Assembly: GCA_029261965.1 (NCBI GenBank)
Contig: JAJDAH010000193.1
Location: 1-45,312, forward strand
Direction: 5' to 3'
Length of the DNA: 45,312 nucleotides
Source of the DNA: Polyangiaceae bacterium
GTDB lineage: Bacteria > Myxococcota_A > Polyangia > Polyangiales > Polyangiaceae
Part shown: positions 5,215-22,469 of the stretch, piece by piece
How positions within the stretch are numbered: the first letter of the stretch is position 1
Layout of the letters: every line of letters begins with the position of its first letter
Notes under the pieces: model-generated
What the model was told of the DNA's origin: nothing
The model's input: the letters and a program-made list of their open reading frames with translations, nothing else
The model's database searches: none
Position numbers and translations under genes: made by a program

Positions 5215-8200
5215 TCAGTCCCCATCCCAGGGATGGCCAATGTCCTTGAGTATCTTCTTGCACTCCTCGCGGTAAGGCGAGTCCCGCTTGTTGCTCAGGA
5301 ACGCCTCACAGTGCTTCTTGGCCTCGAGGTTCGCCCCGATGCTGGTGGCGAGCAGTCGGTGAGCCTCCCAGATCCATCCGGGCTTCGGCTTCATTTGCTC
5401 GCCGAGTTCGAGGGCTTTGCGGAGGTGCTCTTTGGCCTCGCCGTGCTGGCGCCTGGCGTTGAGCAATTTGCCGTATCTGAATCGCCACGTCGGCTCGTTC
5501 GGATTGGCGCTGATGGCTTGCTGCCACTCGTTGAGCGCGGCGTCTTCGCGACCGAGATCGTAGTAGACGACGCCGAGCTCCGCGTGGGCTTCGAAACGAC
5601 TGGGGTTCAGCTCGAGCGCTTTGGTGAGATCCTTGGCGGCGTCCTTGACCGCGCCTTGTTTGCGGCGCAGCACGCCACGCTGCCAGTAGGCGTCCGCGAG
5701 GCCTTGGTCGAGCTCGAGCGCGCGCTTGAGTGACCGCTGAGCGAGATCGGCGTCTCCCGAGTCATTCGCTGCCCAGCCGAGGTAAAGGTGATATTCGGCC
5801 TTGTGCTTGTCGAAGTTGACGGCGAGCTTGAGCAAACGTGTCGCGTCGTTGAGGTTTTCGGCGATGAGATTCGCGCGACCGAGGCAGTAGTTGACCTCGG
5901 CGGAAGTGGGCCGCTGCTGCAGGACTCTCTTGAGGAGCTTTTCGGCCTCGGCGCCACGCCCGGCGCTCACGTAGCCGCACCCGACACGCAGCATGAGGTC
6001 GGGATCCTCGGGGGCCTTCGCCAGCGCTTCTTCGTATTCTTTGAGGGCCTCGTCGGTGCGACCAGCGGCCTGAAACAAGAGCCCGCGCTCGAGGGCAAGG
6101 CCGGGATAGTCGCGATCGATTTTCGCGATGGCGTCGAAGATCTCCAGCGCTTCGTCGAATTGGCGGTTCTTCCGGAGTGCCACCCCGAGTTGAAATTTCG
6201 CGACGACGTCGTTCTTGTCGAGCTCGAGCGCCTTCTTGAACTCGGCGATCGCCGCTTCGTACCGACCCTGACTGAGAGCCACCGTACCGAAAGCCTTGTG
6301 AATCGCCGGGGAGCTCGGAAGCTTCTGCTTGGCCTCGATGAGCGCCTTCTCCGCTTCGTCGGCGCGCCCCTCTTGGTTGAGCAGTAGCGCCAGGGCGACG
6401 TACGCGTCGACCACCACGGTGTCCTGCTTGCCTAGCTTGACCGCTTCTCGGTAGGCCTGTTCGGCCTCCTTGCGGTTGCCCATGGCTTCCTGAACCTTGC
6501 CGAACCAGTAGGCGACCAAGAGTTCCTTCGGATGCGTTTCGCGCAGCTTGGCGAGCGATGCCTTCGCATCGTCGAGCTGCTCGAGCGCGAGCTTGGCTTT
6601 CGCGAAACCAATCTTGGCTCCGATGTCGTCGGCGTCGGCCTGCACCGCGGCTTCGAACCGCGCCAAGGCTTCGGAATAACGCGCCGCCCGATAGAGCGCG
6701 TCTCCGTACCCGTTGAGAGCCCTCGCCGCCTTGGGGTCGATCTTGAGTGCCTCGGCGAATGATTTCTCCGCGTGGCTGATCCGGGAGCGGGCGAGGTGAA
6801 TCTCTCCCTGCAGGGTCTGCGCGTCGACGACCTCCTCGGGACTCGCAAGCCCTTTGACGCTCAGGACTTCGGCGAGCAGCTTGAGTGGGGTCTCCTCGAT
6901 TTCGTCTCCCTGCCAAAGAACACGGGCGAGAACGATGCGCGCCCCCGCATGTGTGGCGTTGGCCTCGAGGGCCGCTTCTGCCTGTGCCTTGGCGGCCTTG
7001 GAGTCGCCGTTTGCGAAGTGAGCGCGGGCGAGCCCGTACGAAGTGCGCGCGCTCTTTTCTATGCTGCTGGCGCGTGTCCATGCCTCGAGCGCGGCTTTTG
7101 GCTCGCGGGCCCTGAGCTCCACCCAACCCTGTATCACCGCCACGTCGATGTTCTTCGGATCGCGTTTTGCCAGATCGGCGAGCGTTTGGCGCGCCTTGGC
7201 GAGCTGCCCACCCGCAGCGGCTTGCGCGGCTTGAGCCAGCTCGAGCTGCGCCACATCCGTTTCCGCGCCGAGATCCTCGAGCATCACCTTCGCCTGAGAG
7301 CTGATCTGGGAGTCGGCACCGAAACGCAACTCGAGCGCATAACCCACGTAGGCTCCGTACGCCTTGAGCGTCTTCAAGCGCTTCGCTTCGGCCTGAGCCG
7401 CAGTGATGCCGTCGAGCGCTTTCTTCGCACTCGAGAACGTGTCTTCGGACAACTTCCGCCGCGCGTCGTCGACGGTTGCTGCGAGCAACTCTTCGTACTT
7501 GCCCTTGTTGATGGTGCCGTCGATGACGTGATAGCCGAACGGGCCGATGTCCGGATCGATGCTCAGCGCCGCGCCCCCGACCACGGAGACGATGAGAACG
7601 CCAACGGCGATCTTGAGACCGCGTCGCTTTTTCGGAGCCTCGACGATTTCCGCCGGCAGCTGGACCTGAAGCGGCGCCTCGGCGACCCCCCGACCGCCCA
7701 CTGGTGCGGTGGCGGCGACCGGCGGTCCCGGCAGATCCTCCTCTTGGGGGATCCCGCCGAATTCCATGTCGTCATCGCCGGTGCCGCCGCGACGGGCTCC
7801 GGCGTCGTTGCCCTCGATCGTGACGGCGTCTCCGCCACCGCCATCCAAGTTGACTTCGCCATATGCGGTTCCGCCGCCGGCTTCCCGCTGAAGGTTGCTC
7901 GGCGCGCCGCTCGGCGGCGCTTCGAGCGGTGGAACCGAGTCCGGCTCCTGGGGCGGCGAAAACTCGGCTGGCGGTCCGCTGCCAGGCCCCATCGTCGAAC
8001 CGAAGGGGTCGGCTCCAGGCGCGGTGCCCGGCGGCGACGAAAAGGGAGGCGGGGCCGACGGGGGAGCACCAAACGGATCGCCAGCAAGTGGATCGGAGGC
8101 CCCGAGGTCGGCCTCACCAAAGGCACCTCCCGACGCCATGGGGTCGGGCAGGCCCGCGGCGTTGTCAGGTAAGCCGGCACCGGGCTCGGGCAACCCGGCC

Positions 8201-9444
8201 GCTGTTTCGGGTAGCCCGGCCGCTGGCTGTGGTAGGCCAGCAGCGGTTTGAGGCAGGCCGGCCGCGGGCTGAGGGAGACCCGCGGCAGCCTGGGGAAGTC
8301 CCGCGGCGATCTGGGGCAAACCCGCCCCTCCAACCGTGGGCAAGTCCGTGCCTCCGAGCGCCGGTAGACCTGCGCCTCCGAGCGCCGGTAGACCTGCACC
8401 ACCGAGAGCCGGTAGGCCAGCGCCCCCGAGCGCGGGAAGGTCGGCTCCGCCCGGCGACGGAAGATCTAGCCCGCCGAGCGACGGCAAGTCCGCGCCACCA
8501 CCACCGCCCAAGGACGGAAGATCTGCCGCTCCGCCCCCGAGGGACGGTAGCTCCCCGCCCCCGCCCCCGCCCTCGGCCCCGCCGCCAAGCGCCGGCAGAT
8601 CGGCGTCCGAGCTGGCGAACGCGCCCGCCGCCGCGCCGGCTCCGACGAGACCGGGCAAATCGGCATCAGAGCTCCCATGCCGCTGGCCACCGACTGAAGG
8701 AAGGTCGACATCGCCGAACGAAGGCGCCGCGGCGGGTACAGGCGGTGGGGAGCCTGGTCCACTGCCGCCAACGGAGGGCAAATCGATCTCCCCGAAACCA
8801 CCGCCGCCTGGCGGGGCGTGCGCCGGAACGTCGGCGGGACCGGCCCCAATGCCAGAGGGTGCGGGAAGGTCGATTTCTCCGAAACCGGCCGATGGTCTCG
8901 GAGGTACGGCAGCGGGCAAGTCGATTTCAGCGGGAGGAGCTGCCGCAGGCAGACCGGCGGCAACCTGCGCTCGGACAGCAGGTCGCGGTGGACCCTGCGC
9001 CGCAGCCGGGCGCGGAGGTGCGGGGGCAGGAAGGTCGATTTCACCGAACGAGCTCGCCGAAGCGGGCGGAGGTTTTGGGCCCGCGCCCCCCACGGCCGGC
9101 AAATCGATTTCATCATACGGACCGGCCGCCGGCGGTGCAGGCGGACTTGCGACTGGGGGGGAGGGCGCGCCGATCCCGGGGGCCGCAACTCCGAGTACCG
9201 TTGCCTTGTTGCTGCGCGCCTTTTTTTTTGGAAGCGGCGGTTTGCCGCTCATAGGCTCCGACGACATGCCGAGGGCGGCGCCCAACACCGGGCTTGGACC
9301 CGTCTGGCGCGGATCTGGGGCCGGCGGATCCACCTGGAAGCTGGTGCCGCACTTGGGGCACCGCATCTTGAGCCCCTTGGCGGGAACTCGACGCTCGTCG
9401 ACCTGGTACGGCGCCTTACAACCTGGGCACTCGACTTTGAACAT
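5215..9444 (-). CDS. Zinc-ribbon, DLP-repeat, single-pass membrane TPR protein
   Basis: A 1409-residue protein of unknown function. Residues 1-40 form an MJ0042-type zinc ribbon with paired CPGC and CPKC motifs. Residues of roughly 45-600 are low-complexity Pro/Ala/Gly sequence carrying six E(I/V)DLP motifs, several ADLPxLGG units, five 8-residue xxLPxxGG units (334-373) and nine 7-residue AGLPxxA units (374-436). A basic KKRRGLK patch then precedes one transmembrane helix at about residues 607-626. The rest, about 780 residues, is a long TPR array. The positive-inside rule puts the ribbon and repeats in the cytoplasm and the TPRs in the periplasm. The zinc ribbon recalls that of the myxobacterial gliding protein AgmX/GltJ and the TPRs recall AgmK/GltI, but this is resemblance of architecture only. 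It is divergent from the parvulin-like gene and convergent with dnaG. Confidence 0.85.
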   Translation of the reverse strand: MFKVECPGCKAPYQVDERRVPAKGLKMRCPKCGTSFQVDPPAPDPRQTGPSPVLGAALGMSSEPMSGKPPLPKKKARSNKATVLGVAAPGIGAPSPPVASPPAPPAAGPYDEIDLPAVGGAGPKPPPASASSFGEIDLPAPAPPRPAAAQGPPRPAVRAQVAAGLPAAAPPAEIDLPAAVPPRPSAGFGEIDLPAPSGIGAGPADVPAHAPPGGGGFGEIDLPSVGGSGPGSPPPVPAAAPSFGDVDLPSVGGQRHGSSDADLPGLVGAGAAAGAFASSDADLPALGGGAEGGGGGGELPSLGGGAADLPSLGGGGGADLPSLGGLDLPSPGGADLPALGGAGLPALGGAGLPALGGAGLPALGGTDLPTVGGAGLPQIAAGLPQAAAGLPQPAAGLPQTAAGLPQPAAGLPETAAGLPEPGAGLPDNAAGLPDPMASGGAFGEADLGASDPLAGDPFGAPPSAPPPFSSPPGTAPGADPFGSTMGPGSGPPAEFSPPQEPDSVPPLEAPPSGAPSNLQREAGGGTAYGEVNLDGGGGDAVTIEGNDAGARRGGTGDDDMEFGGIPQEEDLPGPPVAATAPVGGRGVAEAPLQVQLPAEIVEAPKKRRGLKIAVGVLIVSVVGGAALSIDPDIGPFGYHVIDGTINKGKYEELLAATVDDARRKLSEDTFSSAKKALDGITAAQAEAKRLKTLKAYGAYVGYALELRFGADSQISSQAKVMLEDLGAETDVAQLELAQAAQAAAGGQLAKARQTLADLAKRDPKNIDVAVIQGWVELRAREPKAALEAWTRASSIEKSARTSYGLARAHFANGDSKAAKAQAEAALEANATHAGARIVLARVLWQGDEIEETPLKLLAEVLSVKGLASPEEVVDAQTLQGEIHLARSRISHAEKSFAEALKIDPKAARALNGYGDALYRAARYSEALARFEAAVQADADDIGAKIGFAKAKLALEQLDDAKASLAKLRETHPKELLVAYWFGKVQEAMGNRKEAEQAYREAVKLGKQDTVVVDAYVALALLLNQEGRADEAEKALIEAKQKLPSSPAIHKAFGTVALSQGRYEAAIAEFKKALELDKNDVVAKFQLGVALRKNRQFDEALEIFDAIAKIDRDYPGLALERGLLFQAAGRTDEALKEYEEALAKAPEDPDLMLRVGCGYVSAGRGAEAEKLLKRVLQQRPTSAEVNYCLGRANLIAENLNDATRLLKLAVNFDKHKAEYHLYLGWAANDSGDADLAQRSLKRALELDQGLADAYWQRGVLRRKQGAVKDAAKDLTKALELNPSRFEAHAELGVVYYDLGREDAALNEWQQAISANPNEPTWRFRYGKLLNARRQHGEAKEHLRKALELGEQMKPKPGWIWEAHRLLATSIGANLEAKKHCEAFLSNKRDSPYREECKKILKDIGHPWDGD
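8137..8445 (-). repeat. Two adjacent in-frame coding minisatellites (21-base and 24-base units)
   Basis: Inside the zinc-ribbon/TPR gene, bases 8326-8445 encode five 8-residue units of the form (A/T)(D/G)LPxxGG. Bases 8137-8325 encode nine 7-residue units of the form AGLP(Q/E/D)xx. Neighbouring units are partly identical at the DNA level, and the unit length is always a multiple of three, so copy-number change would keep the frame. Confidence 0.85.
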
Positions 9445-9537: not shown

Positions 9538-10125
9538 ATGCTACGCGGCGGCCCTCGAATGCAGCGAGGAACCTCGGTAGTTTTTGCTGCGCTCCTGGCC
9601 GGAGCCATAGCCACCGTAGTCGTTCAAGCGCGGCGCGGACCAGACTCGGCGCCGGCAGGGCCGGCCGACGCCGGTGCCCTGGCTGACGCTGGTTTGGACG
9701 CCAAAGCCGACGGCGACGCCGGCGAGGACGCTGCGGAGCCGGACGAAGTCGAGGGCCCCCTCGTCCCGCTGGACGTGCTTCCCGACGGGGGCGCCGTGCC
9801 GGAGCTCCCGGCCAGCGGCGCGAAACGCGCGGCCTTCGGCGTCATTCTGTTTCGTTATCGGGGCGCACAAAACGCCGCCAAAGACGCCCGCCCAAAGGAA
9901 AAAGCCCTCGAGCTCGCGAAGGCCATCATCCCGGAGGCACAGGACGACTTCGGGGAAGCCGTCAAGCGTGGTGATGTGGGATCCGGAGCGAACCTCGGGC
10001 GCGTTTCCCGTGGCATTTTGGAACCCGCGCTCGAGTATCTGTTGTTCACGCTGGAAAAGGGCGATGTCTACGGGACCCCCATCGACACCCCCACTGGCTA
10101 CTGGGTTCTTCGTCGGGTGAAGTGA
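9538..10125 (+). CDS. Membrane-anchored parvulin-like protein lacking both parvulin histidines
   Basis: A 195-residue protein. An N-terminal hydrophobic segment (about residues 13-30) acts as signal or anchor. A linker of about 65 residues rich in Ala, Asp and Gly follows, then a C-terminal domain (about 97-195) with the parvulin/PpiC pattern: a GVILFRY strand, a helical segment, DVGSGANLGRVSRG, a Glu-Pro-Ala helix and a final GYWVLRRV strand. In active parvulins the first strand reads xHIL and the last GYHII. Here those histidines are Val102 and Trp189, so isomerase activity is doubtful and a binding or chaperone role is more likely. ATG 9538 is used; ATG 9559 is a possible alternative. It precedes the paired giant TPR genes on the same strand with an 88-base gap. 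Confidence 0.75.
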   Translation: MLRGGPRMQRGTSVVFAALLAGAIATVVVQARRGPDSAPAGPADAGALADAGLDAKADGDAGEDAAEPDEVEGPLVPLDVLPDGGAVPELPASGAKRAAFGVILFRYRGAQNAAKDARPKEKALELAKAIIPEAQDDFGEAVKRGDVGSGANLGRVSRGILEPALEYLLFTLEKGDVYGTPIDTPTGYWVLRRVK

Positions 10126-10213: not shown

Positions 10214-13200
10214 ATGGTCAGCCCCTCACACCCGCCAAACGCGCGAACGAGTAACGCGCCGCCGGATGCGGCGTTGTTTGCCGCTACGATTGAACGACTC
10301 CGCGCGGAGTTCGAGGCCCACGAGGAGCCGGCCGTGCGCGCCACCCTGCTGCACGAGATCGGCGTGCTCGAGGAGTCCAGCGGCGATGAGGCCGGGGCGG
10401 CGCGCGATCTACTGAGCGCGGTGAACATCGAGCCCTCTTTTCGCGAACCACTCGAGCGGCTCATCACCGTGATCGAGCGGCGCAAGTCGTACAAGAATCT
10501 CGGTAAGTTACTCGACCGGCTCGTCAAAGTGGCCGAGACACCCGCCGAGCGCGCGCGCGCGCTCGTGCAGAACGCCGGGTTTCTAGCCAACCACCAAGAC
10601 GACAGCGAGGGAGCACTGATGCTGCTCGAACGGCTCGTGGAAGAGCAGCCCGAGCAAACGACAGCTTGGCTTGCGATGGAGTTGTTGGCTGGCGTGATGG
10701 ACGACAGCGCGCTTCGCGTTCGCGCGCTCGGTGCACGAGCCGAACAGACGACGAACCCCGCCTGGCGGGCGCTCTTGCTCGTCGACCTGGCCAAGCTCCA
10801 GCTCGAAGCGGACGATGCTCCGAAAGCGATCGATTCGCTCCAAAAAGCAATCGACCTCAAGGGCGCCTCGACGTTCTCGGCGTTGATGTCGCTGGAGGAG
10901 GCCGGGCGACGCTCGGAGCAGCAGGAGGTGGTGGCGCGAGCGCTAGAAGCTCAAGCTGCGCTCATCTTGAGAGCGATCGACGACGAGTCGACCGCCAAGG
11001 CCTTCGGGATCCCCGCGTTCCGTCGCTCGGCAGCACATGCGGCCGACGCCTGGCTCCGCGCCGCCGAGGCCCATCGACGCCGGGGCGACATCGCAGCGGC
11101 CACTGCGCTGCTCGATCAAGCGCTCGAACGACTCCCGGAAGAGTCCGCGCTGCGCCACGCGCGCATGCACACCGCCGAGGCCGCTGGAGACACCGGAACG
11201 AGCGCCGCCTTGGCCCAAAAAGAGCTGGACCTGGGCATCCAGGGGCGACCCGCGGCGGCACTTTGGATGCGCATCGCCGAAGCAGCGGCGGCCAACAGTG
11301 ATGGCGCCGGGTCGTTGGAAGCGCTGGAGAAGGCGCTCTCTGAAGACCCCGGGTGCATTCCCGCCCGAGCGCTCGAGCTCGACCTGCTCGGCGGTGGGCA
11401 CGATCCCAACCGACTCGTCGCGGCGCTCGAAGCAACGGCCAACGAAATCGAGGCGGAGGACGCGAAGGGCCGCTTTTATCTTCTGGCCGCCGACGCCTGG
11501 GCCCGACTCGTCGGCGACAATCAAGGCGCGAAGGCCGCGCTGTCTCAGGCCGGCATGTATGGGGTTCCGCCCCCCGTGCTCGCCCGAACGGGGCGCATGC
11601 TCGCCGCACTGACCGGCGACAGCGCTTGGTACGATGAATCGACCCGTCGACTGCTGGCGGCCGGCGCGCCCGACGAGCAGCAAGCGAGCCTTTGGTTCGA
11701 GCTCGGTCGTTCACGGCTGCTACGGGGCGAGCTCGATTCTGCGCGCGAGGCATTTCGCTCGTTGGCCGAGTCGCCCGGCGGTGCGTGGCTCGGGCACGCT
11801 CTCGCGGCCTACGCGGTCGAGCTGGCCCGACCAAGCGCCGAGGACGGGGCGCCCGACGATCCAAGCGAAGATCTCTCGGAGACTGGAAAAACGCGCGGGA
11901 GTACCGCACTTCGCGCCCTCGCGGAGGCCGAGGATGATCCCCAAGCCAAGGCTGCTCTCGAGATCGTCGCGTCCCTGCGGGCTCAAAGGGCGGGCGACCA
12001 CGAAGCGGCGCGCGCCATTCTGACCGAGCTGAACGAAGAGAGCTCCGCGGATCTCGTCGTTGCCAGCGCGTTGGCGGCAAGTCTGCGCGCGGCGGACCGC
12101 GCCAAAGATGCCGCCAAGGTGCTCGACACTTGCGCTGCTGGCGTCGATGACCCGGACGTGGCCGCTGCTCTGAGCCTCGAGGCCGGTATCCTCAAGTGGC
12201 AGGCCGGGGATCGCCCCGGGGGGATCGATTCGTTCGATACAGCAAGCTCGAAGTCCTCTGAATCCGCTTCGGGGCTGCTGAGCTGGGCGCTGCGAGCGGC
12301 CGAGCCGAATTCGGTGGACGCCCGCCGAAAGGCGCTCGACGCGGCGAAAGAGACGAGCCGGTACCCTGCGCTTCTCTCCATCGAACGCTACGGTCTCGAG
12401 ATCGGCGAAAACGGCGGCACGGACGAAGCCGCAGCGGCTCTCGATTCAATCGACGAAAACGACGAGGTTTTCGGCCTACCGAAGACGCTCGCGCAGTCGC
12501 TCCACGCCGGCCACGACGATGACGGGACGCTGATTTTCGAGCGACTGGCAGCGTCGGGCGGCGCGGCGGCGGCCGTTGCTCGTGGGGCGGCGCACCGAGC
12601 GTTGCTCGAAAGCGGCGCCGCCGACCCTGAAAGCATCGACGCGTCCGCCGAGCGGTGGGCCGCTGATGACGCCAGCCTCGTCGCCGCACTCGAGTGGCTC
12701 GGTGCCGCCATGGCAACGAACGACGTCGAGCGCGAGGTGTCGGCGCGCCGCGCGGTTGGACATCGGCTCACCGGAACCGCCGCGGTCGCCATGCAGGCGA
12801 GCGCGAGCTTGCTGGCGACGCTCAGCGGTGACTCGCAGCAACCACCCCTCGCCGGTAGTGAGCCGCTGACGCAATTCACCAACCTCGACTTGGCCCCGCC
12901 GGGTTGCGATCCCCGGCGGCGCACCGCATCTCTGTCCGGCGCGATCGAAGCCGAGCCCGACGAAGAGAACGCCGTCGTGTTGGCACTTCGCGGCTGGAAC
13001 GAGCTCGCCGCGGGCAGACCTGGGGACGCCATCGTGACTTTCCGAGCCGTCGTCGAAGCTCACCCGGAGGAAATCATCGGATGGGATGGCCTGCGCGTCG
13101 CGGCCGTCGCCCTCGAGGACCGCGGCGCCGTTGCGGAGTCGTGCGCCGCGCTCGGCGACGCGGTCGCCGACGACAACCGCGGTGCCGAGTTCTGGGAGGC

Positions 13201-15001
13201 AGCCGCGTTCATCCTCGTCGACGAGCTCGGCGACGCCGAGCGTGGCGAATACGCGCTCGGTCGCGCCGTCGAACGCGACATCGGCCGTTTCGACGCATTC
13301 GACCGGCTTTTCCGGCTCGTGCGCGAGCGCAAGGACGGCCCTCGACTACTCGAGCTCATCGATCAGCGGCTCGAAGTTGCCGAGGACCCCGAAGAGATCG
13401 CCAAGATGTTCTGGGAGAGAGCCCGAGTGCTGCGAGAGGCGGGCGACCGAGACGGTGCTCTCGCGGCTCTCGAAAATGTCGCCATGCTCGAACCCGATCA
13501 CGTTGGCGCTCTAGCCCTCTCGGGCGAGATTTACCTTTCCGCCGGGCAACTCCCCGAGGCCGCCGAAAACCTCGGCCGCCTGGCGACACTCGACGAAGCA
13601 CCGCAAAAGCAGAGATTGATGAGCGGCGTCGCCGCGGCGGACATCTACGAGCGCAAGCTCGACGACCTGCCGAAGGCGCTCGAAGTATTGGCGGTTCTGC
13701 ACAACGCCCGGCTCAGCACGTCGACGGTTCGCGAACGGCTCGCGAGAACCGCCGCAAAGGTCGAAGACTGGCCGAAAGCGACCACGGTGCTCGAGGAGCT
13801 GATGCTGGAGCGCGACACGAGCGAGGGTCGAATCGAAGCGGCGCGGCTCTCGATGGCAATCCATCGTGATCGGATGAACGCACCGGCCAATGCGAAACAC
13901 GCGGTGGAGAAGCTCCTGCAGGAGAAGCCCGACGACGGAGAAGCTATCGACCTGGTGCTCACCGATGCGCTCGGCCCCGCCGACACCGAACGGCTATCGC
14001 GGCAGTCTCGCGACGCCGTCGTGCAATCTCTCGTCGTCGATCCGCTGAACCCGGAGCAGACGAACCGGCTCGCCGAAATCGCCGCGAAGATTCAGGACGC
14101 ACCGCTTCGCCAGGCCGCCCTCGGTTGCCTCATCGCGTTGGGGCACGGCACGTCGGACGTGGACCTCGAGCTCCGGTCGCTGGATCAGCGCGTAGCGGCC
14201 ACTCCGCAAATGGCTATCGACGAGCGAGCGGTGCCCGACCTTTGCGACCCGGCGGACACTGGGCCAGTCGTCGAATTGATGCGGGCGGTCTCGACCACCT
14301 TCGCCGAAACCCTCGGGCCCAACCTCGAGGCTCTCGGCGTCACCAAGAAGGATCGGGTCAAGCCGACGGCGGGCCTACAGGTCCGCAACGAAATCGCGGC
14401 CTGGGCCGGAGCCCTCGGCGTCGGCGACTTCGAGCTGTACGTCGGCGGGCGCGATCCCAACGGCGTTTTCGGCGTCGCCACCGAACCGGCTTCGATCGTC
14501 GTCGGGACGAGCGTCGCCGCTCCTTTGAACCCCGAGCAACGTCAGCTGATTGCTCGTGAGCTGTTTGCCTTGCGCCGCGGCACCACCATCCTTCGTCACC
14601 GCGACTCGACGGACATCGCGGCGTTGGTCGTCGCGCTCTGCAAGATTGGCGGCGTGCAGCTCGCATCGCCCGCGTATGCGATGCTCGGTGAGTTCGAGCG
14701 CCTGCTCACCAAAGGGATGGCGCGCAAAGTGAAGAAAGCACTGCCGTCGCTAGCGCAAGCCGTCGGGCAAGCCGGGCAGGATCCGGTGGAGTGGGTGCGG
14801 GCGGCAACATCGACCTTGGATCGCATGAGCGCGGTTGCCGCCGGTGACGTTTCATACGTGCTGAGCTCGCTCGGCGGCACCCAGCGCGGCGAGCTCGCCC
14901 AGTCCAACGAAGGGCGTGATCGGGCCAAGCGCATCCTGTCATTCGTGCTGTCCCCGACGTATCTCTCGGTGCGCGAGCAGCTCGGCATGGGTGTCAGATG
15001 A
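10214..15001 (+). CDS. Giant TPR protein 1 with C-terminal pseudo-peptidase-like module
   Basis: A 1595-residue protein with no signal peptide or membrane segment, so probably cytosolic. Residues 1 to about 1330 are helical, Ala/Glu-rich repeats of TPR type; recognisable units include the AARDLLSAVNIEPSF and AAENLGRLATLDEAP stretches. From about 1340 to the end is a different module. It contains a predicted strand FELYV, a DPNGVFGVATEP segment, a SIVVGT strand and a helix LIARELFALRRG (about 1444-1455), and ends with a helix-rich tail finishing in YLSVREQLG. That order and spacing resemble M48 peptidases such as HtpX, but the HExxH zinc motif is replaced by AREL with no histidine. The stop codon overlaps the start of the next gene in an ATGA, indicating translational coupling. 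The function is unknown; a scaffold role is inferred. Confidence 0.85.
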   Translation: MVSPSHPPNARTSNAPPDAALFAATIERLRAEFEAHEEPAVRATLLHEIGVLEESSGDEAGAARDLLSAVNIEPSFREPLERLITVIERRKSYKNLGKLLDRLVKVAETPAERARALVQNAGFLANHQDDSEGALMLLERLVEEQPEQTTAWLAMELLAGVMDDSALRVRALGARAEQTTNPAWRALLLVDLAKLQLEADDAPKAIDSLQKAIDLKGASTFSALMSLEEAGRRSEQQEVVARALEAQAALILRAIDDESTAKAFGIPAFRRSAAHAADAWLRAAEAHRRRGDIAAATALLDQALERLPEESALRHARMHTAEAAGDTGTSAALAQKELDLGIQGRPAAALWMRIAEAAAANSDGAGSLEALEKALSEDPGCIPARALELDLLGGGHDPNRLVAALEATANEIEAEDAKGRFYLLAADAWARLVGDNQGAKAALSQAGMYGVPPPVLARTGRMLAALTGDSAWYDESTRRLLAAGAPDEQQASLWFELGRSRLLRGELDSAREAFRSLAESPGGAWLGHALAAYAVELARPSAEDGAPDDPSEDLSETGKTRGSTALRALAEAEDDPQAKAALEIVASLRAQRAGDHEAARAILTELNEESSADLVVASALAASLRAADRAKDAAKVLDTCAAGVDDPDVAAALSLEAGILKWQAGDRPGGIDSFDTASSKSSESASGLLSWALRAAEPNSVDARRKALDAAKETSRYPALLSIERYGLEIGENGGTDEAAAALDSIDENDEVFGLPKTLAQSLHAGHDDDGTLIFERLAASGGAAAAVARGAAHRALLESGAADPESIDASAERWAADDASLVAALEWLGAAMATNDVEREVSARRAVGHRLTGTAAVAMQASASLLATLSGDSQQPPLAGSEPLTQFTNLDLAPPGCDPRRRTASLSGAIEAEPDEENAVVLALRGWNELAAGRPGDAIVTFRAVVEAHPEEIIGWDGLRVAAVALEDRGAVAESCAALGDAVADDNRGAEFWEAAAFILVDELGDAERGEYALGRAVERDIGRFDAFDRLFRLVRERKDGPRLLELIDQRLEVAEDPEEIAKMFWERARVLREAGDRDGALAALENVAMLEPDHVGALALSGEIYLSAGQLPEAAENLGRLATLDEAPQKQRLMSGVAAADIYERKLDDLPKALEVLAVLHNARLSTSTVRERLARTAAKVEDWPKATTVLEELMLERDTSEGRIEAARLSMAIHRDRMNAPANAKHAVEKLLQEKPDDGEAIDLVLTDALGPADTERLSRQSRDAVVQSLVVDPLNPEQTNRLAEIAAKIQDAPLRQAALGCLIALGHGTSDVDLELRSLDQRVAATPQMAIDERAVPDLCDPADTGPVVELMRAVSTTFAETLGPNLEALGVTKKDRVKPTAGLQVRNEIAAWAGALGVGDFELYVGGRDPNGVFGVATEPASIVVGTSVAAPLNPEQRQLIARELFALRRGTTILRHRDSTDIAALVVALCKIGGVQLASPAYAMLGEFERLLTKGMARKVKKALPSLAQAVGQAGQDPVEWVRAATSTLDRMSAVAAGDVSYVLSSLGGTQRGELAQSNEGRDRAKRILSFVLSPTYLSVREQLGMGVR

Positions 15002-18000
15002 GCGACAGTGACAAACCCGACTCCAAGCGCCCTACGAGCGCACCTCGTCCGGCAGCCGGCAGGAGCGGGAGTGCGCGAAGTATCGGTGAAGAGCTCGGGG
15101 GACTCGATTTCGAGCCGGACGCGCTGCTCGACTCGCTCTTCGAGGAAGAGGTCGAAAAGGAACCGCTCGGAGCCACACCGGTCGACCTCGGCGACGCAGA
15201 AACGGAAGAGGAGCCCGGGAGCCTCGCGGGCCCGAAGCTGCACGAACCAGCTCGACGAGATTTTCCCGAGGACGAAGTAACGTTCACGGGCCAGGTAGAT
15301 GGGCTCGGCGCCAAAACGCCCGCGGCGGCGCCCCGGGCCAAGCCCCCGATACCCACACGCGGAGCGCCCCGACCGAACGCCCCCGCCGCCGCGCAATCGC
15401 CCGGCGTGCCGAGCGCTCCCCGCCCGAGCGCGCCCCTGCGCAGCGCACCGAGACCCGGCGTGCCGGGGGTGGAGCCGGCGGCCCCGTCCTCTAGAGCCGC
15501 CAGTGGCCCGGGCGCTCGCGCGCTGCCCGGAGTGTCCTCGCGACCCGACCCCGTGTCGATCGTTTCCTCGCCACCGAAGTCGTCCACGCCGACTAGTAAA
15601 CCAGCGCTGCCCGGCACCGCGAAACCTCCCGCCGTCAACCCGGCAGGTCCCCCTCCGCAGGAGCCGTTCGCCATGAGTCCGGGGGCACCCGCGATCGGAA
15701 CCAAACCCGGGCTCGGAGACACCCCCAGGCCGAAACGGGCCGATCCCCTGGGGACGACCGTGCCAGCAGCCGATCCACTCGGAAAGACGATCCAGGGGGC
15801 TGATCCACTCGGAAAGACCGCCGCCGCGGCTCCATCGAGCAGATCGCGTGACGCGGATCCGCTCGCGAGCACCGTGACCGCGCCGCCGTCGGCCGAGCGC
15901 GCCGACCCCCTGGGTCAGACAGTGGCCGGTGAACCGCCACCGTCAGCGATGGACGAAGATGTGCTCGGCAAGACGACTCCGGCCGCTCCGGACGCTGGGC
16001 CTCCGCCCGTAATCCGCGAAGCGGACGGCTCGAAGCCCGCGAAATCGATCGCTGACTCGATCGCAGACGCCGACCTGGATGCACTCGTCGAAGGCACACC
16101 CTCGGAGGTCGATCCCCTCGAGTTCGAAGGAGACGACCCGGCGCCAGCCACGCCGCGAGCAGAACCGGAACCACCCCCCGGGCCCGAACCCGCCAAGCAA
16201 GAGCAGGTCGAAACGGCGCTGGGCGCCGCAGCCGAGGTCGAGGCAGCGCGGTCAGCACTGATGCAGCCAGCGCCCGAGAACGCTGGACAGACCTGGGAAG
16301 ACGAGCGCGATGCCGTCGCGCACTTGAGCGAAAGCGAGAGCACCGACGAGTGGACGGCCCGCGCGCAGTGGCTCGAAGCCGAAGCGGAATCGATACAAGA
16401 CCCGGCGGCGAAGTCGCGGGCATTGCTCGTCGCGAGCGAACTACTCGCCATGGCTGACGACGCCACAGCTTCGCTCAGGCTCGCCAAAGCCGCCGCGCAG
16501 AGCAGCGGGAACATGGCGGCCGCGCATCGGCAAATCCGCGCCCTCGCCACCCGCGAAGGTGATTGGAAGACGGTCGCATCGGCGGTCGAAGCGGAAACTC
16601 GTGCCGCCCGCACTCCGGAATCGCGAGCCCACGCCACCTACGTGGCCGCGGAGGTTCAACGCCTGCACGTGCACGACGCCGCGGCCGCCCAGCGAAAGCT
16701 CGACAAGATCGCGCGCCTCTTGCCGAACGATCCGCGACCAGGTGTCGCCAAGCTCGCCACCCAACTGGCGGAAACATCGGCCCCGAAGCTTCGCTGGCCC
16801 GATGCCCCCGAGCTGGCTCCGTTGGCGGCCGCGACCGCGGACATCATTCGCCTTCGTGGCGACGCCGTGGCGCTGGATGCTCCGACGCCCGGCCCGGTTG
16901 CCGCGTTCGACATTGCCCGCCGAGCCCTCGCACGCGGAAAGCGAGCGGAGGCCGGAGAGGCCCTCGCCAAGCTCGGTGAGATCGACGGCATCGGAACCGC
17001 AGCCAAGTGGCTCAGCGCGGCGCTGCTCGCTACCGGCGCCGCCACGCGTCCGCGATCCATCGAGCTGCTCGGCCAGATCCTCGAAGCCGGTGGTGGTGCC
17101 GCCGCCCGCCGAGCGCTCGCCACCCGAGCGCTCGAGCAGGGCGACGCCGAAGCGATCGAAGCCGCCATCTCGGAAGCCGACGAAGAAGACGCGACGTTTT
17201 CTCCGGCCGACCGCGTCGCGCTCGGGGCGCTCACCGGCGGCGGCGAAGCCGCGGTGCAAGCCATTGCTGCGATCGCCACGGACGAAAACCTTCGACCACT
17301 GGCGGCCGCGGGTGCGTCAAGCGCTCTCGGCGCCGAGACGGTCCCCATGGTCATCGCCGGTGCGGCCGCACCCAAGAGCGAGATCGCACTCGGCCGAGCA
17401 CTCAGCTCGAGCGATCCAATGGGGGCGGTCAGCGCAGCCCTGGACGAGTTTTCTTCGCACCACCAGGGCCATCCCCTCGCCCGGGGCCTCGGGCTCGAGC
17501 GATCGCTCGCGGCGCGTGCGGCGGGTGAAGTTGCCGCCGCGCTCTCTACGTGGTCGTCCGACGGCGATGCGCGTGATGCCAAGCTCGCGGCCGCGATCGT
17601 TCACGAAGCCGCGAAGAGCGCAGAAGCCGCGCGAACCGAATACACCGCGGCGCTGAGCGCGGGCGCTGTCGGCGAAGCTCCAGCCCGTGCGCTCTTGCCC
17701 GATTTCGAGCCTACGCGTGCTGCGGACGTTCTCGCTTCGGTGGCTCGCGGCTCGAGTGACCCTGCCCAACGAGCGCTGCTACTGGTCGAAGCGGCGCACC
17801 GACGTGCCGGAGAGGACGCTGATGCGATAGCTTCGTTGCTCGAGGAGGCGGCGGAAGCCGAACCCACGATCCCGTTCGCGCACGGTCTGGGGGAGCTTGG
17901 AGCCCGTTCGAAAGGCGACGCCGAGGCTTTGCTCACGTGGCTGCGACGTCGTCGCGAAGCGGCGAGCGATCCCATCGAGAAAGCGCTCGACCTCGTGCGC

Positions 18001-20838
18001 GAGGCACTACTGACGGCCGACGACGACCTGCCCGGCGCTGCCACCGCCCTCGCGGAGGCGGCCGAAGCGCGCCCCACGGACATCGCCCTCCACGAGCTAC
18101 ACGAGAGACTCGCGCCGGACGCCAGCGGCGGCCAGTGGCGCGAAGCTGCGGCGGAAACGATGGAGGGCCCGGGCAAAGCTCGCTTGTACGTCGAGGCCGC
18201 GTTGGAATTCGATCGAACCGGCGACGCCGAAGGCGCCGCCCGTGCTGCCACCGCTGCGGCGGCGAGTGAGGACAGCCTGTTCGCCAAAGCGATCGCCGAG
18301 CGCACAGCTGCCCACAGCCCCGGAGCGGCGCGCCTGGCCGAGAGGCTTCTTGCCGAGGCGAAGGAGGAGCAAGACGTTGCCGCCCAACGAGAGCTCTACG
18401 AAAGACTCAGCGAGCTCGACCAGATTCGTGGCGATGGCGCGAGCGCCCGGCTTTGGCACAGCGCCATCCTCGAGCGTTCGCCCGACCACCTGCCATCGCT
18501 TCGCCACCTCGAGAACGAATTCCTAGGCGCCGGGCGCAGCGACGACTTCGAACCCATCGCGGCCAAACTCGCCGAGCTACTCGACGAAAACGAAGCAGAG
18601 GCTCACGCCGTGCTCGCTTGCGGGCTGCGGGTGAAAAACGGCGCTTGGACGGACGCTCGCGATCTGGTGGAGCGTTCCGCAAAACGCGAGAACCCCTCGC
18701 TCTGGGCACTTCGGCAGGCTTCTGCCCATGCGCGCGCCGCGGCGGACGACACCGCTGAGCTCGACGCCGAGCGCCGACTGGCTGAGCGCACCGAACGAAA
18801 CTACGATCGGGCGACCCTCACGCTCCGAGCGGCCGAAGCCGCGACCCGTCTCGGCAAGCTCGACGATGCACAGGCATTGCTCGACAACGCTGTGGAGTTC
18901 GCACCCAATCACTTGGTAGCGCTCACGACGCGAGCAGAGGTTCTCGAAGCGCGAGAACAGTTCAACGAAGGTGCCGAAGCGTTCGAAGCCGTGGCGACCG
19001 CCAGCGGCGTCGATGTGCACCGCGTGCAGGCGTGGCATCAAGCCGCGGTCCTGTGGCTCGACCACACCGAAGAGCGGGACCGAGGGGTGACGGCCCTAGA
19101 GCAGTCGGCTGCACTCGACATCACACACGCCGACGTGTTCGAACGCTTGCGGGCCATCTACGTCGCGAACGAAGATCGCACGAGGCTAGCCGACCTTCTC
19201 GAAAGGCGACTGGCCGAAACGTCCGACCCCGAGCAACGAATTGCGCTCGAGGTCAGCCGCGGACGGGCGCTCGCAGAGGTCGGCGACTCATCGGCCGCAA
19301 AGGAAGCCCTGGCTGCGGCCCTCGACGCGAACCCGGACCACGCGGATGCGCTCGACGCGTTTGCCGAGCTCTGCGCAGCCGAAGGCGACTGGTCTGGCGC
19401 GGAACAGGCCTGGCTGCGACTGGCGCGGCACGCGCAGGAGCCCGAACGACAAGCGGAGATCTACCGCAAGCTCGCCGAACTCTACGACACCGATTTGCCC
19501 AATCCGGCTCGGGCCGAGTTGTCGTACCGCGAGGTGCTCAAGCGTCAACCAAACGACGCGGACGCCATGGCGCGACTCGTGCAGGTATACGGACGCCTCG
19601 AGCAACCGGACAAGGCCGTCGAACTTCAGATGGAGCTCGTCAACAAGGCGGGCAATCCCGACGACAAACGCACGGCGATGATCGGCTTGGCCCTCGTCTA
19701 CGAGCAGATCAGCGGCGACAAGCGGAAGGCCGAAAGTACTCTCGAAAAGGCGCGCAAGGCTTGGCCAGCCCACCCGAGCACCCTGAAGGCGCTCGCGGAT
19801 TTCTACAGCCGAAACAGCGAAGGCGCTGCGTTGCACGTCTTGCTCGACAGGGCCGCCAACGACGCTCGGCGCGCGCTCAACACGGGGCGATTCGACCCAG
19901 CGTTCTTCGAAACCCTCGGCACGGTGGCCGAGCTTCGCGGCAACACAGACGGCGCCAGGATTGCCGCCGCAACCCTCGCCGGACTGCGCGGCGAGGAGGC
20001 GCAGCTGACGGGCGCTGGCGTCGGAGCCGGCAACGCTCAGCTCGATGACTTGTTGTCGCCGGATCTATTGAGCGGCTCGCTCCGAGCGCTGCTAAAGAAG
20101 GCTGGCGCCGCGCTCGATCGCGCGTACGAGTTGGACCTGCGAGCGCTTCGTGCGTCGCCGATGCCGGCTGAGTCGTCGGAAATCGTCGGGCAATTCCGGC
20201 AGGTCGCCACCGCCTTTGGGATCCCCAACCTCGACATCTACGTCTCTGGTGCCGTCGGTCCGGTTTGCATGCCGGTGAGCGCATCGCCGCCGCAGATAGT
20301 CTTCGGTAAAGCGTTGCTCGAAACCGACGACGACCCGGTGAGGTCGTTCCTATTCGTGCGCGCGCTGAAAATCCTTCAAGCACACGGGGCCGCGCTCGCG
20401 CGAACCGCCCCCATCGATTTGTGGCCCGTGACGGCTGCGTTCTTGAAGGTCTTCGCTCCGGACTGGCAACCGCAGGGCGTCGACATGAAGAAGATGACCG
20501 AAGCGCACCGGCGAATAAGCGCCGCGATGCCGAGCCAGGTCGCCCCAGACGTCGGGGTGCTCGCCCTCGAGGTCACCGGCAGCATCGGAAACCGCGCCAG
20601 CCAGCTTGCGACGGCGATCCACGAGCTGGGCGACCGGACCGGTTTGCTTGCGCTGGGAGATCCGAACGTCGCCATCCGCGGCGTGGCTTTCGCCGCCGGC
20701 CACACCGGCGGCCCGCCGGCTTCGGGGACGGACCGACTCAAATGGATCGTCCGCAACCCCGAGGCGCGGGATTTGGCGATCTTCAGCGTCAGCGACGCCT
20801 ACGCCAGCGCGCGCGCCCAATTGGGCCTCGAGGGCTGA
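14998..20838 (+). CDS. Giant TPR protein 2, paralogue of the preceding gene
   Basis: A 1946-residue protein coupled to the preceding gene by an ATGA overlap. Residues 1 to about 400 are disordered-looking, rich in Pro, Ala, Ser and acidic residues, with six copies of a D-P-L-G-x-T type motif between 247 and 326. From about 420 to 1690 there is a long helical-repeat/TPR region; the clearest units are near 1440-1600. The final 250 residues repeat the module seen at the end of the first giant: LDIYVSG (about 1744), a PPQIVFGKALL strand, the helix FLFVRALKILQAHG (about 1783) in the place of an HExxH helix, and an end in SDAYASARAQLG. No signal peptide or membrane helix is visible. The two proteins probably arose by duplication and may assemble together; this is inferred from shared ends and coupling. 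Confidence 0.85.
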   Translation: MSDSDKPDSKRPTSAPRPAAGRSGSARSIGEELGGLDFEPDALLDSLFEEEVEKEPLGATPVDLGDAETEEEPGSLAGPKLHEPARRDFPEDEVTFTGQVDGLGAKTPAAAPRAKPPIPTRGAPRPNAPAAAQSPGVPSAPRPSAPLRSAPRPGVPGVEPAAPSSRAASGPGARALPGVSSRPDPVSIVSSPPKSSTPTSKPALPGTAKPPAVNPAGPPPQEPFAMSPGAPAIGTKPGLGDTPRPKRADPLGTTVPAADPLGKTIQGADPLGKTAAAAPSSRSRDADPLASTVTAPPSAERADPLGQTVAGEPPPSAMDEDVLGKTTPAAPDAGPPPVIREADGSKPAKSIADSIADADLDALVEGTPSEVDPLEFEGDDPAPATPRAEPEPPPGPEPAKQEQVETALGAAAEVEAARSALMQPAPENAGQTWEDERDAVAHLSESESTDEWTARAQWLEAEAESIQDPAAKSRALLVASELLAMADDATASLRLAKAAAQSSGNMAAAHRQIRALATREGDWKTVASAVEAETRAARTPESRAHATYVAAEVQRLHVHDAAAAQRKLDKIARLLPNDPRPGVAKLATQLAETSAPKLRWPDAPELAPLAAATADIIRLRGDAVALDAPTPGPVAAFDIARRALARGKRAEAGEALAKLGEIDGIGTAAKWLSAALLATGAATRPRSIELLGQILEAGGGAAARRALATRALEQGDAEAIEAAISEADEEDATFSPADRVALGALTGGGEAAVQAIAAIATDENLRPLAAAGASSALGAETVPMVIAGAAAPKSEIALGRALSSSDPMGAVSAALDEFSSHHQGHPLARGLGLERSLAARAAGEVAAALSTWSSDGDARDAKLAAAIVHEAAKSAEAARTEYTAALSAGAVGEAPARALLPDFEPTRAADVLASVARGSSDPAQRALLLVEAAHRRAGEDADAIASLLEEAAEAEPTIPFAHGLGELGARSKGDAEALLTWLRRRREAASDPIEKALDLVREALLTADDDLPGAATALAEAAEARPTDIALHELHERLAPDASGGQWREAAAETMEGPGKARLYVEAALEFDRTGDAEGAARAATAAAASEDSLFAKAIAERTAAHSPGAARLAERLLAEAKEEQDVAAQRELYERLSELDQIRGDGASARLWHSAILERSPDHLPSLRHLENEFLGAGRSDDFEPIAAKLAELLDENEAEAHAVLACGLRVKNGAWTDARDLVERSAKRENPSLWALRQASAHARAAADDTAELDAERRLAERTERNYDRATLTLRAAEAATRLGKLDDAQALLDNAVEFAPNHLVALTTRAEVLEAREQFNEGAEAFEAVATASGVDVHRVQAWHQAAVLWLDHTEERDRGVTALEQSAALDITHADVFERLRAIYVANEDRTRLADLLERRLAETSDPEQRIALEVSRGRALAEVGDSSAAKEALAAALDANPDHADALDAFAELCAAEGDWSGAEQAWLRLARHAQEPERQAEIYRKLAELYDTDLPNPARAELSYREVLKRQPNDADAMARLVQVYGRLEQPDKAVELQMELVNKAGNPDDKRTAMIGLALVYEQISGDKRKAESTLEKARKAWPAHPSTLKALADFYSRNSEGAALHVLLDRAANDARRALNTGRFDPAFFETLGTVAELRGNTDGARIAAATLAGLRGEEAQLTGAGVGAGNAQLDDLLSPDLLSGSLRALLKKAGAALDRAYELDLRALRASPMPAESSEIVGQFRQVATAFGIPNLDIYVSGAVGPVCMPVSASPPQIVFGKALLETDDDPVRSFLFVRALKILQAHGAALARTAPIDLWPVTAAFLKVFAPDWQPQGVDMKKMTEAHRRISAAMPSQVAPDVGVLALEVTGSIGNRASQLATAIHELGDRTGLLALGDPNVAIRGVAFAAGHTGGPPASGTDRLKWIVRNPEARDLAIFSVSDAYASARAQLGLEG
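15736..15975 (+). repeat. Six DPLGxT-type motifs in TPR protein 2
   Basis: Residues 247-326 of the second giant TPR protein contain RADPLGTT, AADPLGKT, GADPLGKT, DADPLAST, RADPLGQT and DEDVLGKT, separated by 4-16 residues. Each has a threonine in the same place. The spacing is irregular, so this is a dispersed short linear motif and not a strict tandem repeat. Confidence 0.8.
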
Positions 20839-21005: not shown

Positions 21006-22469
21006 ATGGCGCTGAGAGAGGACATATCGGAACGCGCCCATGGACGCGTAGGTCAGGTACTCAACGGGAAGTACACGCTCGACCGCGTCGTGGGGATCGG
21101 AGGGATGGCGACGGTGTACGCCGCCACCCACCGGAACAAGCGTCGGTTCGCCGTCAAAATGCTGCACCCCGACGTGGCGATGGACCACGAGGTGACCCAG
21201 CGTTTCATTCGCGAAGGATACGTCGCCAATACCGTCGGACACCCGGGCACAGTCCAAGTTTTCGACGACGACGTCACCGAGGACGGCGCCCCGTTCTTGG
21301 TCATGGAGCTGCTCGAGGGCGAGACCCTCGAAGCCCGCTGGGAGCGAAAACTCCAAGCCCTGCCGGTCTCCGAGGTGCTGGCGGTGGTGGATCAACTGCT
21401 CGACGTGCTCGTCGCGGCCCACGAGCAAGGCATCGTACATCGCGACTTGAAACCGGAGAACCTGTTCTTGACGACCGAAAGCGAGCTCAAGGTGCTCGAC
21501 TTCGGCATCGCGAGGCTCCGAGAGCTGAGTCAGACGAGCGCCGCGGCGACGCGCGCGGGCTCGCTCCTGGGCACACCAGCCTTCATGTCGCCGGAGCAAG
21601 CGCGCGGACGCTGGGACGACGTCGACGGGCGAACCGATCTTTGGGCACTCGGAGCGACGATGTTCACGCTCTTGACCGGGCGCTTCGTCCACCAGTGCGA
21701 CACCGTCAACGAGCAGCTCATCGCCGCCGCGACCGAGCCGGCAGACTCGCTCGGCAAGGTCCTACCCGAGCTCAATCCGAGCGTGGTGGAGCTCGTGGAC
21801 CGCGCGCTGGCTTTCAAGAAGGATGATCGCTGGGCGGACGCCGCGTCGATGCAAGCCGCTTCTCGATCCGCTCTGCAAGTCATCACCGGGGCGGAGCGTG
21901 TCAGTCTCCCCAAACCGTCCGTCGTGGTGAATGTCGAGCAGGCGACTCTGGTCGCCTCGGCGTCGGCGACCCAGCTCGCCCAGAGTGAGACCGTCAGCAC
22001 CGCCGGAGCCATCACCAGTAGCGTCGAGGCCCCGGCGCCTCCGCGTAGCCGTCGAACTGCGGTGCTCGTCGGCGCCGCGATCGCCGCGGCAGCCGCGGTG
22101 ATCGTCGTGGTGGCGGGCATTGGTGCGTCTGGGAGCACGGTCGCGGAGACGCCGCCCCCCGATGAAGCGCCGACGAGTCCCGCAGCCACCTCGCCATCCG
22201 CCGAAGATTCCGAGCCAACGACTGGAGACGAAGGTCCAACGGTCGAGCCGGTCGCGATGCCAGCTCCGGCCGAGGATGCTGGCGCCGCGTCAAAAGCGGT
22301 GCCGACGTCTCCAAAAACCGTGAGCAAACCACACGCCGAAGTCACCGTGAGCAAACCGTCGAAACCGGCCGCCCCGGCGGTCGGCCCCAACCCTGTGGCC
22401 AAACCCAAACCGCCGAAACCCGAAAAGCCGAAGCCACCCGAGCAGAATCCGTTCGACCAGCGGCACTGA
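21006..22469 (+). CDS. Membrane Ser/Thr protein kinase, PknB type
   Basis: Hanks-type protein kinase of 487 residues. The cytosolic kinase domain (about 20-285) has the Gly loop GIGGMATVY, ATP-binding Lys51, HRDLKPEN with catalytic Asp147, DFG with Asp165 and the MSPEQ P+1 segment, so it looks active and is of the RD type. A juxtamembrane stretch is followed by one transmembrane helix at about 352-372. The last 115 residues are Pro/Lys/Glu-rich with no PASTA repeats, probably periplasmic. ATG 21006 fits the start, with no clear ribosome binding site. A 167-base gap separates it from the giant TPR genes, and the next gene begins 41 bases downstream, suggesting an operon with the signal-peptide TPR protein. 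Substrates cannot be read from the sequence. Confidence 0.93.
   Translation: MALREDISERAHGRVGQVLNGKYTLDRVVGIGGMATVYAATHRNKRRFAVKMLHPDVAMDHEVTQRFIREGYVANTVGHPGTVQVFDDDVTEDGAPFLVMELLEGETLEARWERKLQALPVSEVLAVVDQLLDVLVAAHEQGIVHRDLKPENLFLTTESELKVLDFGIARLRELSQTSAAATRAGSLLGTPAFMSPEQARGRWDDVDGRTDLWALGATMFTLLTGRFVHQCDTVNEQLIAAATEPADSLGKVLPELNPSVVELVDRALAFKKDDRWADAASMQAASRSALQVITGAERVSLPKPSVVVNVEQATLVASASATQLAQSETVSTAGAITSSVEAPAPPRSRRTAVLVGAAIAAAAAVIVVVAGIGASGSTVAETPPPDEAPTSPAATSPSAEDSEPTTGDEGPTVEPVAMPAPAEDAGAASKAVPTSPKTVSKPHAEVTVSKPSKPAAPAVGPNPVAKPKPPKPEKPKPPEQNPFDQRH

Follow-up and report, generated by a model that had tools for sequence, protein, structure and literature searches.

Two consecutive giant genes of a Polyangiaceae bacterium, called A and B in the following, encode what we think are scaffold proteins of a kind present throughout Myxococcota. 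They would be built of tetratricopeptide repeats (TPR), carry at the C-terminus a pseudo-M48 domain that acts as docking cap, and be made together for an A-B assembly; we give this reading a probability of about 0.65. Both genes lie in the window, which is the whole stretch of 45,312 nucleotides that was analyzed. The terminal domains, called tips, are homologous to each other, and the family they belong to descends from M48 peptidases.

There is, in our opinion, good reason for studying these tips. They give a first structural entry point to giant myxobacterial proteins for which the family libraries searched report nothing but TPR. Moreover, they show how a protease fold became a conserved module without catalysis and was then multiplied.

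The gene pair and its terminal modules

Gene A (10214..15001, forward strand, ATG start) encodes 1595 residues and gene B (14998..20838, forward strand, ATG start) 1946 residues, and the end of A and the start of B share the four bases ATGA, just as a previous sequence-only reading of this DNA had described. Pfam recognizes TPR and TPR-like (ARM_TT21) models in both proteins, with TPR_2 at 1.2e-12 in A and TPR_17 at 4.1e-8 in B, and NCBIfam assigns both to TPR-containing families. At least six helices precede the tip in the structural models of A and B, so that both proteins count as TPR proteins. No signal or transmembrane segment was seen in A when inspected by eye, and the proteins would presumably work in the cytosol. 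B begins with a Pro/Ala-rich part of about 420 residues (by eye), followed by the TPR region and the tip. This low-complexity N-terminal part holds five DPL(G/A)xT repeats (window about 15742-15925). As a repeat, DPLGxT is absent from the 23 other loci, with one single match in L080, and it was left out of the proposed mechanism because it is not conserved as a repeat elsewhere.

The tip of A comprises residues 1341-1595 (14234..14998, forward strand) and that of B residues 1681-1946 (20038..20835, forward strand). The strand, helix and end motifs that had been pointed out as common to both C-termini can be read literally in the two proteins: a Y-V-x-G strand (LYVGG in A, IYVSG in B), a P-x-x-I-V-x-G strand (PASIVVG in A, PPQIVFG in B), a helix downstream of the latter, and an S-x-x-Y-x-x-x-R-x-Q-L-G end (SPTYLSVREQLG in A, SDAYASARAQLG in B). 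For comparison across the family, 142 matches at E 1 were reduced to 137 at E < 1e-6 and, after removing copies from the same stretch, to a set of 103 tips; the M48 loci L136 and L145 are represented among the five weaker matches (E above 1e-6). In the alignment columns of this set, the terminal S-x-x-Y-x-x-x-R-x-x-L-G motif has S1580 and R1587 as its Ser and Arg in A (14951..14986, forward strand) and S1932 and R1939 in B (20791..20826, forward strand), and the family keeps its Ser (98/102 tips) and its Arg (99/103). Judging from its spacing, the motif might be equated with the HPx4R plug of M48 peptidases; this was rejected because the profile alignment puts it after the plug.

The two modules were also expected to be similar as a whole, and they are. 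A and B compared over the whole length give a BLASTP value of 4e-15, spanning residues 934-1592 of A, and the tips alone are matched by phmmer at 6e-7 and by BLASTP at 0.002 in one-against-one searches. The profile of the A tip (23 sequences) matches that of the B tip (20 sequences) with a probability of 97.8 and E 6.5e-13 over 376 columns.

Fold and descent from M48 peptidases

AlphaFold (AF2) models were built for the last 400 residues of each protein, from 22 sequences for A (m4503e9e1edee, mean pLDDT 93.2) and from 20 for B (mf85c3be623af, mean pLDDT 94.2). In the model of B, three helical hairpins lead into helices and three strands, which are followed by a helix (residues 1779-1794) at the place of the active-site helix. 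A VIA structural search with this model found the HtpX domain 3cqb_B, which contains the HExxH helix, at Z 10.4 (values below about 13 can reflect a common arrangement in helical models), with an rmsd of 2.4 over 93 of 101 residues and model residues 166-358. The match covers nearly the whole target, and its model range takes in the sheet. Among the 50 matches listed it is the sole one that starts in the B tip, 47 of them lying inside about the first 112 model residues, and the alignments of 7zy4_A and 3k9i beginning in the TPR part and ending beyond it. Z values of 8 or more are reached by 190 of 981 chains, and many TPR chains score about like HtpX. As modelled, the B tip is predicted to have an M48-related fold, in line with what the sequence-only reading had proposed, and not an unrelated one. 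For A, no M48 chain was among the VIA matches listed, which is no evidence against an M48 fold, and the M48 case of A thus rests on sequence. The Foldseek matches in the PDB were mostly chains of TPR or other helical repeats, with an LpoP domain in addition for B, and the best E-values were 0.036 for B and 0.067 for A; as about 130-140 residues of the models were TPR, this search tests the tips poorly.

Profile comparison was performed by hhalign, whose E-values hold for single comparisons. The 103 tips match an alignment of 24 M48 peptidases of relatives, taken from 30 M48 loci, with probability 95.7, E 8.9e-9 and score 62.8, the best of 100 column shuffles scoring 14.9 and the reversed profile 12.5. 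The match is higher against 12 M48 proteins of one myxobacterial group (probability 97.3, E 2e-11, score 80.9, 179 columns; best of 100 shuffles 23.2, reversed 16.3). When the tips are divided at the active helix, each portion matches M48 by itself, the N-terminal one with E 1.7e-6 and the C-terminal one with E 1.5e-7. Five control alignments of other genes score 11.3-18.2 against the family profile, and the TPR-side columns of A and B score 32.0 and 42.4, the columns responsible (26 and 23) lying at the edge, where they are shared with the tips.

The strength of this relationship differs between subsets, which were sorted by end motifs, at least three orthologues of A or B (L067, L070, L095) falling into the third one. 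A-like tips (34 rows) reach probability 76.1 against the 12 M48 proteins and 82.8, with E 9.4e-6, against the 24; B-like tips (25 rows) only 7.4 and 6.2, with E 0.005-0.006; and the other tips (44 rows) 97.4 and 96.5. Single M48 proteins compared with the family profile give probabilities from 0.1 to 94.1, L136 being the best. On these alignments, the M48 link appears strong when the family is taken as a whole, while it is fair in the case of A and indirect in that of B. The proposal that both tips derive from M48 thus holds for the family profile and the A-like subset, but it is not supported by the B-like profile taken alone; since that profile has no M48 match, the case of B rests on its fold and its homology to the family.

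PF01435 at E 1 matches neither A nor B nor any of 19 tips, and the five Pfam models found over these 19 each hit a single tip at or near chance level, none of them M48. At E 1 no NCBIfam model matches the A or B tip alone, a PDB-sequence profile search with the 19 tips returned no M48, all its matches being MEK1 kinases with E-values of 1.1 and above, and a search of PHROGs gave one match at 0.063. One might suppose that the M48 resemblance is convergent or an alignment artefact and that the tip is an unrelated alpha/beta domain, since B-type tips alone, single-tip searches and 19-tip searches all fail to reach M48. We consider this very improbable in view of the fold match of B with HtpX, the whole-domain profile match far above shuffled, reversed and unrelated controls, and the independent M48 match of both halves.

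Tips and M48 peptidases (PF01435; HtpX; a Polyangia group of 297-429 residues, e.g., L136 and L145) have the same order of elements: a helix, a three-strand sheet, the active-site helix, the third-ligand helix with D-R, and a C-terminal F..S..Y. The tips differ from the peptidases in having no HExxH and in standing at the end of long TPR proteins. The nearest active relatives of the tips are the 12 M48 proteins used above (L136, L138-L140, L142-L148, L155), with frames of 297-429 residues. Eleven of them carry HExGHI.N.HVV, and among the loci fetched the group occurs in 12 of 20 genomes; it is perhaps the source of the dead tips. The genome of the window also has an M48 match (L158, G000:C42:1467-1970) in an open frame of 1414 residues with an intact HEFGH.

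Loss and replacement of the zinc site

The supposed loss of the zinc ligands is clear throughout the family. HExxH is present in none of the 103 tips, its place being taken in A by R1448-E1449-L-F-A1452 (RELFA; 14555..14569, forward strand) and in B by R1788-A1789-L-K-I1792 (RALKI; 20359..20373, forward strand), as given by the alignment columns. The column of the first zinc His holds Arg in 84 tips, Lys in 12 and His in one, and that of the second holds His in one tip. The Glu of HExxH is retained in 31 of 103. In the third-ligand column, which is placed from the alignment only, Glu is found in 16 of 103, with Thr in A and His in B. Not more than two of the four catalytic positions are retained in any tip, and this maximum is reached by one row of the 103. 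The HPx4R plug, present in all 24 true M48 proteins used, has its pattern in five of 103 tips, one of these near the C-terminus, A and B not being among them. Judged by HExxH, the third-ligand Glu and the plug, the tips do not appear to be active M48 peptidases.

In spite of this loss, basic residues are strongly conserved at two places of the former active site. The first is the Arg or Lys in the first-His column, which is absent from the M48 relatives and present in 96 of 103 tips. The second is the Arg of a D-R pair in the former third-ligand helix (D1536-R1537 in A, 14819..14824, forward strand; D1879-R1880 in B, 20632..20637, forward strand), the counterpart of C-D-R or A-D in M48, where Arg follows D in 102 of 103 tips. 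Active M48 relatives already carry this second Arg (ITCDRAG), and its conservation is thus partly inherited. We think that the change of the zinc site suggests repurposing, and not plain decay or drift.

The following mechanism is proposed. A complete, HtpX-like M48 catalytic domain would have lost its zinc site, gained Arg or Lys at the position of the first His, and kept the near-invariant Arg in the former third-ligand helix. The TPR superhelix of A and B most likely collects partner proteins, and the groove of the pseudo-protease, whose putative lining by basic residues is read from alignment columns, would most likely hold a peptide or an acidic tail without cutting it, in the manner of a docking cap.

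Two other interpretations of the same residues have to be weighed. The tips might be only a structural end of the TPR superhelix, a stable terminator or a dimerization plate whose groove has no ligand and whose conserved arginines form salt bridges within the fold. In the models of A and B, no low-confidence linker separates the tip from the last TPR-like helices, which fits such a role, as does the partly inherited conservation of the D-R Arg. A bare cap, however, has no obvious need for the Arg or Lys acquired in the first-His column, and we regard this interpretation as unlikely. The tips might also still be enzymes with another chemistry, for instance hydrolases that need no metal or transferases that employ the arginines. 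The near-invariant Arg and Ser, a common Tyr position and the HExxH Glu left in almost a third of the tips can be quoted for it. Nevertheless, none of the 25 most conserved columns has Cys, His or Lys as its commonest residue, and the HExxH Glu is confined to A-type tips in the rows displayed, which leaves very little room for such an activity. The conserved arginines provide a simple mutational test.

Family, neighbours and known systems

The tip is not peculiar to the A-B pair; it belongs to a phylum-wide Myxococcota family with members of the size of GltI. At E 0.01, a match to the A tip, paralogues included, was found in all 59 genomes searched and a match to the B tip in 52 of them, and the relatives of the A tip include 23 named loci. 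In a sample of 140 genomes from all over the phylum, for which not more than 18 candidates per genome were scored, 62 have a match to the A1 profile at 0.001. The genome of the window itself contributes at least eight aligned tips or tip fragments, A and B included and some cut by contig ends, with two further candidate matches on C266 and C123. The open frames of the family often have 1,600-2,000 residues, with a second class of 3,700-4,700 and a short class near 740-760.

In the tree of the tips, whose midpoint root is for drawing only and in which several end branches are long, the giants form one set of 24 rows (SH-aLRT 99). The A clade (32 rows) and the B clade (27 rows, or 37 with deeper ones) lie inside one 71-row group with an SH-aLRT of 84. 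This arrangement fits an old tandem duplication with moderate support, and the earlier suggestion of a duplicated module can be kept in this form.

An A tip lies 4.6-7.1 kb upstream of a B tip, on the same contig and strand, in 39 of the 52 genomes with a B match, one A row being used per genome and none for three genomes. Among the remaining 13, the A row is on another contig in nine, it is only the B tip itself in one, and no A row is available in three; in two of the nine (G040 and G049), another tip is listed 4-5 kb before B. Adjacency of the pair, which the sequence-only reading had proposed to survey, was counted in three quarters of these genomes and not in the other 13. At all 24 loci inspected (the 23 named ones and the window), a possible B start touches the A stop, by a 4-base overlap in 20, a 1-base overlap in two and a 2-base gap in two, although in some of them the B frame is cut by the contig end, and in L080 it looks broken. 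Coupled translation of a single mRNA would probably yield both proteins, which would then form a joint assembly.

Two further genes accompany the pair. Directly before A, a protein of 195 residues (9538..10125, forward strand) combines a PPIC-type rotamase domain (PF00639, 5.3e-5, 24.5 bits against a cut-off of 21.7) with a hydrophobic segment at its N-terminus (by eye). This gene is found in the same place in 19 of the 21 loci holding upstream sequence, being missing in L083 and L086. The divergent neighbour (5215..9444, reverse strand) encodes 1409 residues with an MJ0042-type zinc ribbon, a linker, a hydrophobic segment (by eye) and C-terminal TPR, and such a gene stands beside the pair in 17 of the 21 loci, partly at contig ends. 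It would be a likely link of the assembly to the inner membrane. Its linker is long and of low complexity, with repeated DLP/GLP motifs (FGEIDLP, AGLPQ), and its layout presumably recalls that of GltJ/AgmX. An ATP synthase beta gene lies upstream of the pair in L084 and L126. In G163 (L089, L125), a genome of the same phylum, an A-B pair branches within the clades of the window's own family and has the same two neighbours, which suggests transfer or a mixed bin.

Pseudopeptidases and fusions of TPR with M48 are already known kinds of proteins, and it is the giant family with a dead M48 tip that is apparently undescribed. In E. coli BepA (zinc ligands H136, H140 and E201, plug H246), an M48-type domain is likewise joined to a TPR domain; BepA is active and has the M48 domain first and the TPR after it (PMC7950410), whereas in A and B the dead domain stands at the end, after well over 1000 residues in which no signal peptide is visible. 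PMC11266112 presents dead metallopeptidase folds that serve in protein contacts, a likeness to the tips, with M14 and ADAM proteins as examples, and the main text of that article has no occurrence of M48, HtpX, Ste24 or tetratricopeptide. Among the matches listed in a literature search, to which subscription papers were mostly external, no title or beginning of an abstract described such a domain.

GltI (AgmK) of Myxococcus xanthus is also a giant Myxococcota TPR protein. MXAN_4863 is given 4132 residues in PMC3169522, with TPR and with no signal or transmembrane segment marked there, and the tip family has members of 3.7-4.7 thousand residues. A and B differ from it in having 1.6 and 1.9 thousand residues and in standing in tandem, the comparison being made by size and gene order. 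A 2026 review describes GltI as a large scaffold that links the motor and MreB (PMC13104615), and by analogy A and B may be scaffolds as well; PMC12288465 leaves open the threading of GltG and GltI through peptidoglycan. By the identity and size criteria of PMC3447774, AgmK homologues were found only in M. xanthus and Stigmatella among the strains surveyed there, which speaks against wide GltI orthology.

In G059 (L129), a family member of 3,919 residues is followed by two genes that match the N- and C-terminal parts of GltJ (2.9e-37 and 1.7e-12, both below cut-off), and in G064 (L113) GltG-like genes (best 2.2e-123, below cut-off) are found not more than about 5 kb away from a giant. No GltJ over the curated cut-off was found in the 140 genomes, nor in the order and class searches of 26 genomes and one genome, and none at 1e-15 among the 7 of 44 candidates scored in the genome of the window. 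Near other weak GltJ-like hits, no tip at E 1e-3 was present in 20 stretches, several of which end at contig ends. The possible link to GltI consists only of the similar size, a single case of gene order and a single neighbourhood with GltG-like genes, and the chance that GltI carries this tip is, in our opinion, somewhat under one half. If it does, the tip would be a testable docking site in the motility machine. A wider reading, which we find rather doubtful, is that giant Myxococcota scaffolds including GltI end in a repurposed M48 domain with an arginine-lined pocket in place of the zinc site. This pocket would bind a ligand common to the family, such as an acidic tail or a phosphorylated site on a partner in the envelope or the cytoskeleton, and A and B, translated together, would be the paired scaffold of a second envelope machine in Polyangia.

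For the Ser/Thr kinase gene downstream of B (21006-22469), membership in the unit was weighed and rejected, since it is not conserved beside the pair in other loci; L086 has one weak kinase match on the opposite strand. Besides this gene of the window, kinase genes adjoin or lie within about 6 kb of family members in L045 (8925-10709), L116 (6225-8171) and L112 (7308-9248), which makes four cases. Myxobacteria have many kinases, and this proximity may thus be due to chance.
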